A DNA stretch of 64,000 bases. It comes from Verrucomicrobiota bacterium. Lineage in GTDB: Bacteria; Verrucomicrobiota; Verrucomicrobiia; Limisphaerales; PALSA-1396. The stretch is from assembly GCA_016200005.1 (NCBI GenBank), contig JACQFP010000085.1, positions 1 to 64,000 on the forward strand, given 5' to 3'. Of the stretch, positions 45,861 to 51,218 are shown in pieces (within the stretch, counting starts at the first letter, position 1; each line of letters opens with the position of its first letter). The translations under genes and the position numbers were made by a program. The notes beneath the pieces are model-generated. The model was not told the DNA's origin, did not search any database, and saw nothing but the letters and a program-made list of their open reading frames with translations.

Positions 45861-45945
45861 TCCAAATACCCAAATACCCAAATACCCAATTCTGCCGACT
45901 GGCATTTTTTTGGGTATTTGGGTTTTTGGGTGCTTGGGTATTTGG
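45861..45945. repeat. palindromic TTGGGTA-unit intergenic repeat, copy 2
   Basis: The left arm is a run of CCAAATAC units (45861-45889) and the right arm a run of TTGGGTAT/TTTGGGTG units (45909-45945), separated by about 20 bp. It lies between the permease and the next gene. The same unit recurs at 34385 and 49220. Confidence 0.8.
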
Positions 45946-47506: not shown

Positions 47507-49219
47507 GTGACGAAGGTTAATACCACCCAACGCCCGGTGCGTATCGGTCTGATTTCGCTCGGTTGCGCGAAAAATCTGGTCGATGCCGAGATCATGCTCG
47601 GCGCACTCATCCAGAGCGGCGTGGAAATCACCAACGACGCGGCCACCGCCGACGTGGTCATCGTCAACACCTGCTCGTTCATCGACAGCGCGCAGGAGGA
47701 GAGCGTCGATACCATCCTGGAATCAACGGAACTGCGTGAGGCGAAGAATCGTGGCCAGGGACTGATCGTTTCCGGCTGTCTGCCACAGCGTTTCCGCGAA
47801 GAACTGCCGAAGTTGCTGCCCGAAGTGGATGCGTTCATGGGCATTGATCAGGTAGCCCAGGTCGGGAACATTGTTCAACAGGCGCTGGTGCACCGCGCCG
47901 GGCGAATTCAAAATGGAAAATTAAAAATTAAAAACCCCAAATCGGAAATCGCGGCTCGGCTTGCCGAACTGGCTAAGTCGAGTGTACCTGCGGAACACGA
48001 AAACGAACAATCCCTTCGCCGCAGCGAAAAGCTTGGCAAGACCAAAACCGTCGTCACACCAGTCACGCCTCACGACTCACGCAACACGCAGCACGCCCCG
48101 CTGGTCGATGTCAACACACGCCCCACCTACATCCCCGACTTTGCCACGCCGCGTTTTCGTCTCACGCCGCGCCATTTCGCCTACGTGAAAATTGCCGAAG
48201 GCTGCAATCATCCGTGCAGCTTCTGCATCATTCCCCGGATGCGCGGCAGCCATCGCAGCCGGCAGCAGAGCGACATCGTGCGGGAAGCGCGGGCGTTGAT
48301 CGCCGACGGCGTGAAGGAGTTGAACTTGATTTCGCAGGACTCAACCTATTACGGACTCGATCTGAGAGCGGGCCACAGTCGCGCAATTTCGTCGCCGGAG
48401 AAATTCAAAGCTGCCGCAAAATCTTTACCGGTCAATGCCACCACGCTCTGCACCTTGTTGCGCGAACTCAATTCGCTCGAGGGCGATTTCTGGATCCGCC
48501 TGCTCTACACGCACCCGGCGCATTGGACAGATGAATTGATTCAAACCATTGCCGAATGTCCAAAGGTGGCGCGCTACGTCGATATTCCGCTGCAACACAT
48601 TCACGAAAACATGCTCGAACGGATGCGCCGTGAGACCAGCGAACAATACATCCGCGACCTCATCCAGAGAATCCGCTCCGGCATTCCCGGCATTACCTTG
48701 CGCACAACATTCATCGTCGGCTTTCCTGGCGAAACGGAAAAATATTTCCAAACGCTGCTCGACTTCATCCACGAAACGAAGTTTGAACGCCTCGGCGTGT
48801 TCACTTACTCGAAGGAGGAAGGCACGCGCGCCGGCAACATGCAGGGTCAGATTCCTGATAAGATCAAAAAACAACGACGCGCCCGGGCGATGGCCGAGCA
48901 ACACCAGGTCGCGGTGCAAGTCTCCGAATCGTTCGTTGGTCGCACCCTTAAAGTACTGGTGGAAAGCGAAGCCAGCGCAAAAGCACTGGGCCGCGCCAAC
49001 GTATTTTCCTGGGAGCATGGGTTGATCCGTGACCAGGAAACTCTGAACCCTCAACCCTCAACCCTCAAGTATTTGATCGCCCGTGGCGAGGCCGACGCGC
49101 CGGACATCGATGGTCGCGTTTGTGTGCGAGGCAGATTGCCGATTGGCGAATTTGCGCAAGTGAGGATCATCGGTCACACGGATTACGATTTGATTGCTGA
49201 GCCGGCGAGGGGACAATGA
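47507..49219 (+). CDS. rimO: ribosomal protein S12 methylthiotransferase RimO
   Basis: RimO adds a methylthio group to Asp88/89 of ribosomal protein S12. The UPF0004 domain has Cys20 in SLGCAKNLVD and further cysteines in NTCSF and SGCLPQRF. The radical-SAM motif is EGCNHPCSFC; a TRAM domain ends the protein. At 570 residues it is about 130 longer than usual: one insert of about 80 residues lies between the UPF0004 and radical-SAM domains, with words such as NGKLKIKNPKSE and SRNTQHAP, and another lies near the end (LNPQPSTLK). Both inserts look like translated short-unit repeats. GTG is the start. Confidence 0.92.
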   Translation: MTKVNTTQRPVRIGLISLGCAKNLVDAEIMLGALIQSGVEITNDAATADVVIVNTCSFIDSAQEESVDTILESTELREAKNRGQGLIVSGCLPQRFREELPKLLPEVDAFMGIDQVAQVGNIVQQALVHRAGRIQNGKLKIKNPKSEIAARLAELAKSSVPAEHENEQSLRRSEKLGKTKTVVTPVTPHDSRNTQHAPLVDVNTRPTYIPDFATPRFRLTPRHFAYVKIAEGCNHPCSFCIIPRMRGSHRSRQQSDIVREARALIADGVKELNLISQDSTYYGLDLRAGHSRAISSPEKFKAAAKSLPVNATTLCTLLRELNSLEGDFWIRLLYTHPAHWTDELIQTIAECPKVARYVDIPLQHIHENMLERMRRETSEQYIRDLIQRIRSGIPGITLRTTFIVGFPGETEKYFQTLLDFIHETKFERLGVFTYSKEEGTRAGNMQGQIPDKIKKQRRARAMAEQHQVAVQVSESFVGRTLKVLVESEASAKALGRANVFSWEHGLIRDQETLNPQPSTLKYLIARGEADAPDIDGRVCVRGRLPIGEFAQVRIIGHTDYDLIAEPARGQ

Positions 49220-49305
49220 CCCAAATACCCAAATATCCAAATACTCAAGGGCTGAGAGCCTTCCACCTCGCGTCTTGGGTATTTGGATATTTGGGTATTT
49301 AGGTT
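49220..49305. repeat. palindromic TTGGGTA-unit intergenic repeat, copy 3
   Basis: Left arm CCAAATACC/CCAAATATCC (49220-49246), right arm TTGGGTATTTGGATATTTGGG (49274-49300) with about 25 bp between. It fills the gap between rimO and pgsA and shares its unit with copies 1 and 2. Confidence 0.8.
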
Positions 49306-49332
49306 TTTGCGTCTTTGCATTAAAACAAAACC

Positions 49333-49905
49333 ATGAACCTGCCAAACAAACTGACACTTTCCCGCTTCATGCTGACGGTCGCGTTCCTGGTGGTCCTGCT
49401 TTCGCAGTCGCGTTACCACCCAACTCTGGCCCTGGTCCTTTTCATTGCCGCCAGTTTGACGGATTATTTCGACGGCCGGATCGCACGGCGCGACCAGCTC
49501 ATCACGAACTTCGGCGTGTTGATGGACCCGCTGGCGGACAAGATACTGGTCTGCTCCGCGTTTATCGCGTTCGTCGATCGCGGCTGGATGCCGGTGTGGA
49601 TGGTAGTGGTCATCGTGGCGCGCGAGCTGGCGATCACCGGCTTGCGGTTGCTGGCGGCGTCGAAACAGGTGGTGCTGGCAGCGGAAGGCTATGGCAAACA
49701 CAAAACCATTTCACAAATCGTGGCGATCATTTCGATTCTCGTCCTCCAGAGTTATCCTGAATGGGGCGACTGGTCGAAGGCGATTTTAGATTGGTGGGTG
49801 CCGTATTTCACGGCTGTGTCAAAATGGGTGGCGGTCGTGCTGACTTTCACTTCTGGCGCACTTTATCTTTGGAACAATCGAAGGTTGTATTTGGACGATC
49901 TATGA
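49333..49905 (+). CDS. pgsA: CDP-diacylglycerol-glycerol-3-phosphate 3-phosphatidyltransferase
   Basis: PgsA makes phosphatidylglycerophosphate from CDP-diacylglycerol in the inner membrane. The full CDP-alcohol phosphotransferase signature is present: Asp44, Asp47, Gly48, Ala51, Arg52, Gly61, Asp65 and Asp69 in the order D-x2-D-G-x2-A-R-x8-G-x3-D-x3-D. The protein has 190 residues and several membrane helices. The next gene encodes a PgpA-containing fusion, which would dephosphorylate the product. Confidence 0.94.
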   Translation: MNLPNKLTLSRFMLTVAFLVVLLSQSRYHPTLALVLFIAASLTDYFDGRIARRDQLITNFGVLMDPLADKILVCSAFIAFVDRGWMPVWMVVVIVARELAITGLRLLAASKQVVLAAEGYGKHKTISQIVAIISILVLQSYPEWGDWSKAILDWWVPYFTAVSKWVAVVLTFTSGALYLWNNRRLYLDDL

Positions 49906-49914
49906 GTTGGTAGC

Positions 49915-50715
49915 ATGGGAGCCGACACTTTTTCAAACATGATGTTTGCGAATTGGTTTGGGGGATGGGAGATAGTGTTGATTCTGGCCGTCATCCTTAT
50001 TCTACTTGGTACCAAAAAGCTGTCTGACATGGGGAAGGGCTTCAACCAAGGTTTTAATGAGTTGTTGAAAGCGACCAGAGATGTGGCAGACGAATTGGGG
50101 GACAAAGAGCAGCGAGTAACCGGCGTTGTTTATGAGGCAATAACGCCCGACAGTCGGACGGCAGACTTTACCTTTCGTACCCAAACTGAAAATGATTCGT
50201 CCGTTATCCTTTTCATTGCACAAGGGTTTGGCGTGGGGCGAATACCGTTTGCGCCCGGCACGTTCGGTTCGCTAGTTGGCCTGCTCTGGTTCCTGGCTTT
50301 GCTCTCGACGGGAAATGTATTGTTGTTCCTGACTGGTTCGATTGCGGGAGTTGCGGTGTCCGTCTGGCTTTGCGACAAGGCCGAAAGCATTTTGAGGCAA
50401 CGTGATCCACGCTCTGTGGTGCTGGACGAAATTGTTGCGGTGCCATTCTGTTTCGCCAGTTGGGTCGCCGTGTTATTTTTCAAAAACGGCCACCTGCCCG
50501 CTCCCGAATATTTCTTCTCCAGCGACACATGGCTGCTAACGGCTGGAGTTTTCGCAGCCTTCCGCTTTTTTGACGTCTTGAAGCCATGGCCGGTGCGGCA
50601 AAGCCAGTCGTTGCCCGGCGGCTGGGGCGTGACGATGGATGATCTGCTGGCGGCGGCTAATGTTAACGTAACCGTGCTTTTGGTTTACTGCGCTAAAATG
50701 TCTTTTGCTCTCTAG
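49915..50715 (+). CDS. pgpA: TatA-like segment fused to phosphatidylglycerophosphatase A
   Basis: This one open frame encodes two unrelated modules. Residues 18-52 form a TatA/MttA-type unit: a short membrane helix, the hinge and an amphipathic helix (LGTKKLSDMGKGFNQGFNEL). A linker (about 60-100) leads to a complete PgpA domain with FAPGTFGSLVGLL (112-124), DPRSVVLDEIVA (164-175) and FRFFDVLKPWPVR (216-228) plus MDDLLAA (241-247). PgpA converts phosphatidylglycerophosphate to phosphatidylglycerol. It sits 9 bp after pgsA. The TatA part could be an anchor or part of a twin-arginine translocase. Confidence 0.85.
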   Translation: MGADTFSNMMFANWFGGWEIVLILAVILILLGTKKLSDMGKGFNQGFNELLKATRDVADELGDKEQRVTGVVYEAITPDSRTADFTFRTQTENDSSVILFIAQGFGVGRIPFAPGTFGSLVGLLWFLALLSTGNVLLFLTGSIAGVAVSVWLCDKAESILRQRDPRSVVLDEIVAVPFCFASWVAVLFFKNGHLPAPEYFFSSDTWLLTAGVFAAFRFFDVLKPWPVRQSQSLPGGWGVTMDDLLAAANVNVTVLLVYCAKMSFAL

Positions 50716-51218
50716 CGGCGCGGCGGCGCCGGCGGCAGCGGGAGGAGTTCGCCGGAAACGTTTTGCGTTGGTTGATACAGCCCCGGAGTCAGGCCGGCGA
50801 GCGGGTCGGCGTTTCGGTAATGTCGCCACCACAGAGCGATCACGATCAGGCTGATCAACGCCAGGGCGACGCCGAGTGCGATCAGTGCGGTGCGCCGGTT
50901 TACCTTGGAAAACTGGAGCATGATAAAATCCACAGCGGTGCGCGGTTGATCGGAGAGCGGTGGCGGCTCACTGAATTGTTCGGTCTGACTCAACTCTTCG
51001 TCCAGTGCGGCCATGATCTGCGGCACGTCCAGTTTGAGCACAGCGGCGTAGCTGCGGACAAACCCGCGAATATAGACCGTGGCGGAAAACACTTGGAAAT
51101 TCCCTTCTTCCAGCGCCCGGACGTGGTCGGTCCGAATTTTGGTAATCTCGGCCACCTGGTACACAGTGAGGTTCTGGGCCTCCCGGCCTTCGCGGAGTTG
51201 TTCGGCTACCGTCGGCAT
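50712..51218 (-). CDS. RodZ-like HTH membrane protein
   Basis: The 168-residue protein has an N-terminal Cro/XRE helix-turn-helix (LREGREAQNLTVYQVAEITKI, VRALEEGNFQVF), a proline-rich linker, one transmembrane helix (about 112-131) and a short periplasmic tail ending in prolines. This layout is that of RodZ, which links MreB filaments to the envelope. The periplasmic part is shorter than in E. coli RodZ. The stop overlaps the convergent PgpA-fusion gene by 4 bp. Confidence 0.8.
   Translation of the reverse strand: MPTVAEQLREGREAQNLTVYQVAEITKIRTDHVRALEEGNFQVFSATVYIRGFVRSYAAVLKLDVPQIMAALDEELSQTEQFSEPPPLSDQPRTAVDFIMLQFSKVNRRTALIALGVALALISLIVIALWWRHYRNADPLAGLTPGLYQPTQNVSGELLPLPPAPPRR

Follow-up and report, generated by a model that had tools for sequence, protein, structure and literature searches.

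We found that, in a Verrucomicrobiota bacterium, the phospholipid enzyme PgpA is joined in one frame to an N-terminal unit of the TatA type, and that this fusion is real and old. The gene lies in the window (the whole 64,000-nucleotide stretch of DNA that was analyzed) as a single unbroken open reading frame with an ATG start. We consider it somewhat probable that the TatA part acts as an accessory anchor or positioner, which would hold PgpA at the cytoplasmic face of the membrane, and that it is not a working Tat component.

A preliminary description of the window had reported a TatA-type unit and a complete PgpA in the same frame, with pgsA 9 bp upstream, and both observations held when examined with curated profiles. 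In an hmmscan against Pfam, TatA_B_E (PF02416) matched with an E-value of 5e-8, above its curated cut-off, and a second profile search found TatA_B_E at the same place with 35.1 bits. A solved TatA structure (9e07_F) was matched by residues 16–74 in a phmmer search against the PDB. PgpA (PF04608) then follows with 122.1 bits (hmmscan; cut-off 28, E-value 2e-35, profile positions 1–140 of 141), and its conserved blocks are all there, F216-R217, D220, K223 and the GWGVTMDD block at 236–243 included. Judging from its sequence, the product is most likely a PgpA phosphatase, which would convert phosphatidylglycerophosphate (PGP) to phosphatidylglycerol (PG). Upstream, rimO precedes pgsA (Table 1).

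In-frame ATG codons are found at 49915, 49939 and 49942, and the true start may be at one of the latter two, since MMFANWFGGWEIV looks like the starts of canonical TatAs. The ATG at 50029 falls within the TatA part, and from there to the PgpA core there is no in-frame ATG, only TTG and GTG; PgpA would therefore most simply be made as part of the fusion. The AlphaFold model places helices at residues 3–32 and 35–70 with a break at 33–34, at a pLDDT of 45–63 in this N-terminal part; its confidence is high for PgpA only and low for the TatA part, and a PDB fold search with the model of the fusion gave no significant match. PAP2 matches were also observed in the window's genome, and PgpA may not be the sole PGP phosphatase there.

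Table 1. Features at the fusion locus (positions in the window).
Feature	Position	Strand	Details
pgsA, phosphatidylglycerophosphate synthase	49333..49905	+	TIGR00560, 152 bits vs cut-off 109.1
tatA-pgpA fusion gene, 266 aa	49915..50715	+	alternative start 49939 or 49942
TatA_B_E domain, residues 16–65	49960..50109	+	32.4 bits, cut-off 21; PDB 9e07_F 2e-5
Short TatA-type helix	49969..50010	+	Glu19, 12 hydrophobic residues, hinge Gly32; F20-equivalent Leu31; helix also in AlphaFold model
Amphipathic helix	50011..50109	+	Gly42 and Gly46 kept; equivalents of P, F39 and K40 are Ser37, Leu50 and Leu51
Linker motif VYEAITPDSRTADF	50128..50169	+	degenerate version of ALTPDNQTAELYDP, the tail of the stand-alone paralogs
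PgpA domain, residues 100–257	50212..50685	+	D164, D171-E172, FRxxDxxKPxP, GWGVTMDD
RodZ-like HTH_25 membrane protein	50712..51218	−	convergent to fusion gene

Could the N-terminal unit be a generic membrane anchor that resembles TatA by chance? A control HMM was built from 33 canonical TatAs of the same order and run against 5,963 stop-to-stop segments, drawn from ~135 pgsA–pgpA loci together with the window, with all membrane genes included. Below an E-value of 1e-3, it matched TatA-bearing pgpA loci only (17 distinct, with the window's own locus present twice under different names), and the next match was at E ~1. The window's TatA segment scored 62.4 bits, compared with at most 23.2 bits in 2,000 shuffles that kept the composition of helix and tail. 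This control and the shuffles rule out a chance anchor, and the segment scores far above the generic membrane anchor that the preliminary description had named as the alternative. With the same HMM, the N-terminal single helices of family f50 (L128, L137, L158), L098 and L175 had no detectable similarity to TatA. The NCBIfam cut-off for TatA/TatE (TIGR01411) was missed, at 33 versus 53.9 bits.

The plan of TatA consists of a polar residue, ~12 hydrophobic residues and a glycine hinge (PMC13186574), and the window's copy follows it. We compared 16 fused copies with 34 canonical TatAs; because the fused copies are related to each other, Fisher tests on these counts overstate the evidence. The acidic residue was kept in 14 of the 16 fused copies, a hydrophobic stretch of 12 residues in 15 and the hinge glycine (G21) in 14, while G33 and the next glycine of the amphipathic helix were each present in all 16. 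On the other hand, K40 was found in 3 of the 16 fused copies and in all 34 canonical TatAs. The pattern that selected the canonical set required an acidic residue as well as [FL]G and [PSG], so that the invariance of these positions is partly built in; its demand on F39 was loose, and K40 played no part in it. F20 was present in 11 and the proline in 10 of the 16 fused copies; in the window's copy, F20, P, F39 and K40 are all changed (to Leu, Ser, Leu and Leu). According to a recent review (PMC13186574), the F-K motif (F39/K40 in E. coli) is conserved in TatA and F39A is inactive; in the window, this motif is missing, with Leu50-Leu51 in its place. These comparisons suggest that most of the residues on which TatA packing and transport reportedly depend are gone from the TatA part. 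The retention of the glycines and of exactly 12 residues in the stretch could reflect the use of a more specific TatA-like property, and the equal stretch length could also simply reflect the rarity of indels.

How might such a unit serve PgpA? A TatA paralog gene would have landed between pgsA and pgpA and been joined in frame, probably once and early in the order. As in TatA biology, the short helix would enter the membrane with its N-terminus outside, and the amphipathic helix would lie along the cytoplasmic face. From what is known of TatA and PgpA, the linker would then present PgpA at the cytoplasmic face, beside PgsA, which makes its substrate. PgpA reportedly acts at the cytoplasmic face of the membrane and is itself multispanning (PMC11629553), which makes the need for an additional anchor less than obvious. 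The preliminary description had offered two readings of the TatA part, an extra anchor and a means of placing lipid synthesis at Tat sites. We favor the former over the latter because the packing and transport residues are mostly lost, the part is near-neutral in one genus and it was lost repeatedly. Against the anchor stands the observation that, in the genus measured, strong constraint falls on the linker and not on the TatA helix; the linker may thus be a functional element, which the term "anchor" may miss.

To place the fusion among its relatives, 293 genomes of the order were searched, with matches in 281, and ~135 pgpA loci were read. The same fusion, complete and in frame, occurs in 12 genomes of one order of Verrucomicrobiota, which represent at least eight families (the window's genome, G099, G003, G158, G070, G139, G195, G038, G027, G015, G265 and G076). 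Four damaged forms add to these: in G120 and JACPZS010000099 (L051), the junction is in frame and the ORF is broken elsewhere, while the junction itself carries a frame break in G010 and a stop in G094. The junction proposed earlier for the window thus recurs in relatives, with 2 of the 16 split or frame-broken there. At ~91 loci, pgpA directly follows pgsA without a TatA part. In a search of 388 genomes of the phylum, none of the ~150 best matches listed joins a TatA part to PgpA outside the order.

On a tree of PgpA and PgsA from 115 loci, the fused label requires 11 changes, at least five of them forced by well-supported branches. This count alone is blind to gain versus loss, and the direction was argued from stubs and remnants: L025 retains a short linker stub resembling that of its relative L011, and L035 a TatA remnant (E-value 7e-4 with the control HMM). 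The simplest reading is a single fusion early in the order, followed by decay and repeated loss, with independent events as the alternative, and the loci compared indicate that the TatA part has been lost repeatedly in the order. Between G094 and G154, whose flanks are 95–96% identical in nucleotides, a clean ~300 bp indel fits gain and loss alike. In G001, the nearest relative (same genus, pgsA 88% identical), the fusion gene is missing after pgsA, which the RodZ-like gene directly abuts, and PgpA was not found in the genome (82% complete). No pgpA follows pgsA within the bases read at L276 (G001), L277 (G148) and L278 (G042).

Evolutionary rates were estimated in one genus from four genomes (G099, G070, G139 and G120). 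The fused TatA part, with ~40 codons, showed a dN/dS of 0.37–1.36, compared with 0.12–0.28 for the linker, 0.05–0.29 for PgpA and 0.08–0.11 for pgsA. For canonical tatA in the genus of G099, dN was 0–0.02 at a dS of 0.31–0.78. These results indicate that, in this one genus, the fused TatA part is near-neutral and the linker and PgpA are constrained; the window's lineage, in which no close relative keeps the fusion gene, may differ.

Could the extension, then, be baggage without a role, left when a paralog gene between pgsA and pgpA lost its stop? We regard this as possible but rather unlikely. The near-neutral rate would fit a neutral fusion, as would the losses scattered across the order, the clean presence and absence in the near-identical neighbors G094 and G154 and the lack of the whole gene in G001. 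However, the frame has stayed open in all 12 genomes and across the families that they represent, the acidic residue, the length of the stretch and the two glycines have persisted through deep divergence, and the linker is under constraint in the genus measured.

A coupling to the translocon, in which the TatA part would join TatA assemblies so that PG synthesis would take place at the sites of folded-protein export, appears unlikely. The homology to TatA is clear, the short helix is kept, TatA reportedly tolerates changes behind the amphipathic helix (PMC13186574), and the genome has both tatA and tatC. A separate tatA, which the preliminary description had proposed to look for, was found next to tatC: the only TatC gene of the window's genome (C36) lies beside that other TatA, and the fused part is in a gene without tatC linkage. 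However, the F-K motif is gone from most fused copies, with all four of the positions compared changed in the window, and the paralog of origin was not seen beside tatC. Moreover, the fused part is near-neutral in one genus and recurrently lost, while canonical tatA is almost invariant. The genome's own tatC-linked tatA (G000:C36:131973-132083, L001) has its frame broken after KEFK in an A run, and coding for a TatA-like tail resumes downstream in another frame; this break is probably an assembly indel.

The linker itself points to the source of the TatA part. In many fusions, the linker contains VADALTHSNQT, VAEALTPDNQT or a similar sequence (ALTxxNQT). Stand-alone TatA paralogs with an ALTPDNQT tail occur in G001, G196, G148, G191, G009 (three copies) and G199, and their plan runs from a TatA core through GGIYGKPAAQALTPDNQTAELYDP to a basic tail. 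In the TatAs that we treated as canonical, the tail is instead rich in proline. Because the ALTxxNQT motif is common to fusion linkers and stand-alone paralogs and the canonical tail is Pro-rich, a TatA paralog of the ALTPDNQT type is the most likely source of the fused part, and an origin from the tatC-linked TatA is not favored. A profile of the tail, run on 286 genomes of the order, matched TatA paralogs and TatA–PgpA loci only; in 388 genomes of the phylum, there were two weak matches in other proteins. It reached threshold in the fusions of G099, G070, G139, G120, G010 and G094, whereas the window's linker is recognizable by eye and stays below the threshold. The preliminary description, sound on the frame and its domains, had contained neither this conserved motif and its paralog origin nor the fact that the nearest relative lacks the gene.

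It could be argued that ALTxxNQT is a docking or regulatory peptide taken from the TatA paralog, which the helices merely carry to the membrane. The tail, GKPxAxALTPDNQxAELYDP, is ~75% identical among the eight stand-alone paralogs, including L214 with its degenerate TatA core, and the linker is strongly constrained in the genus in which the fusion was measured. The motif is, however, degenerate in the window, without a match to the tail profile, and absent in L011, L020, L026, L036, L051 and L099; roughly half of the fusions, that of the window among them, have a degenerate motif or none. We find this explanation improbable.

The stand-alone paralogs are apparently a small, undescribed TatA paralog family; Pfam and NCBIfam hold no model for them beyond the TatA core. 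At the paralog loci (L180, L210, L211, L214 and L239–L242), the invariant tail is followed by a basic C-terminus, the core at L214 being degenerate with the tail kept, and the three copies of G009 lie at different places. It is conceivable, though we are doubtful, that these paralogs form a separate membrane-module family other than the translocase, with helices that sense or shape the membrane and a tail that docks a partner, and that the PgpA fusion reflects one such job at a PG-rich membrane. In G009 (L240:1957-4553), a radical SAM gene, an Lgt-like gene and an ALTPDNQT TatA paralog stand in a row. Lgt uses PG, and this neighbor is a second hint of a link between the paralogs and PG-rich membrane. 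The radical SAM gene is matched best in NCBIfam by TrsS and then by the tetraether synthase Tes, both under cut-off.

That an assembly or sequencing error joined two genes is very improbable, and for the family it is refuted by the in-frame fusions in relatives: the junctions broken by a stop or frame break in two relatives (G094 and G010) and the broken canonical tatA suggest that single-base errors may exist in the assembly, but 12 independent assemblies share this in-frame junction, and wherever the linker motif is present it is kept in frame.

Several other features were observed near the locus. Between rimO and pgsA (49214-49309), units of CCCAAATA(C/T)CCAAATA form an inverted repeat with arms of 36 nt that are 89% complementary, and the same units recur at 45861-45930 of the window (8 matches compared with 0.01 expected). 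Tandem AACCCTC repeats lie within rimO, near its 3′ end (49039-49068), and the RimO frame has, by eye, a long extra stretch at about residues 130–210.

Compared with known systems, the fusion resembles TatA/TatE (PF02416; TIGR01411) in its short acidic helix, 12-residue stretch, glycine hinge and amphipathic helix with G...G, and differs in the lost F20, P, F39 and K40, in its C-terminal enzyme domain and in having no tatC beside it. With PgpA (PF04608; PRK11068/NF008288), it shares a full-length domain, the acidic and Gly-rich blocks and an operon-like arrangement with pgsA, but it carries an N-terminal module of ~95 residues and scores 66.7 against a cut-off of 226 for the NF008288 equivalog. 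The ALTPDNQT-tail paralogs share the TatA-like helix and a tail that is partly kept as the linker; unlike the fusion, they have no PgpA, continue into a basic C-terminus after the tail and do not neighbor pgsA at the loci examined.

The fusion is an apparently new combination of two known families, TatA_B_E and PgpA, a novelty judged from the literature searched, in which no TatA–PgpA fusion was found, in agreement with the earlier remark that no described one was known. We know of no earlier described fusion of TatA to an enzyme. Not all Pfam TatA matches in such genomes are Tat components. In these natural sequences, the portion of TatA that forms the short and amphipathic helices is set apart from the portion required for packing at the translocon, and they also lead to an apparently undescribed family of TatA paralogs whose tail is strongly conserved. 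If the anchor reading is true, lipid synthesis would have taken over a component of protein export as a membrane module.
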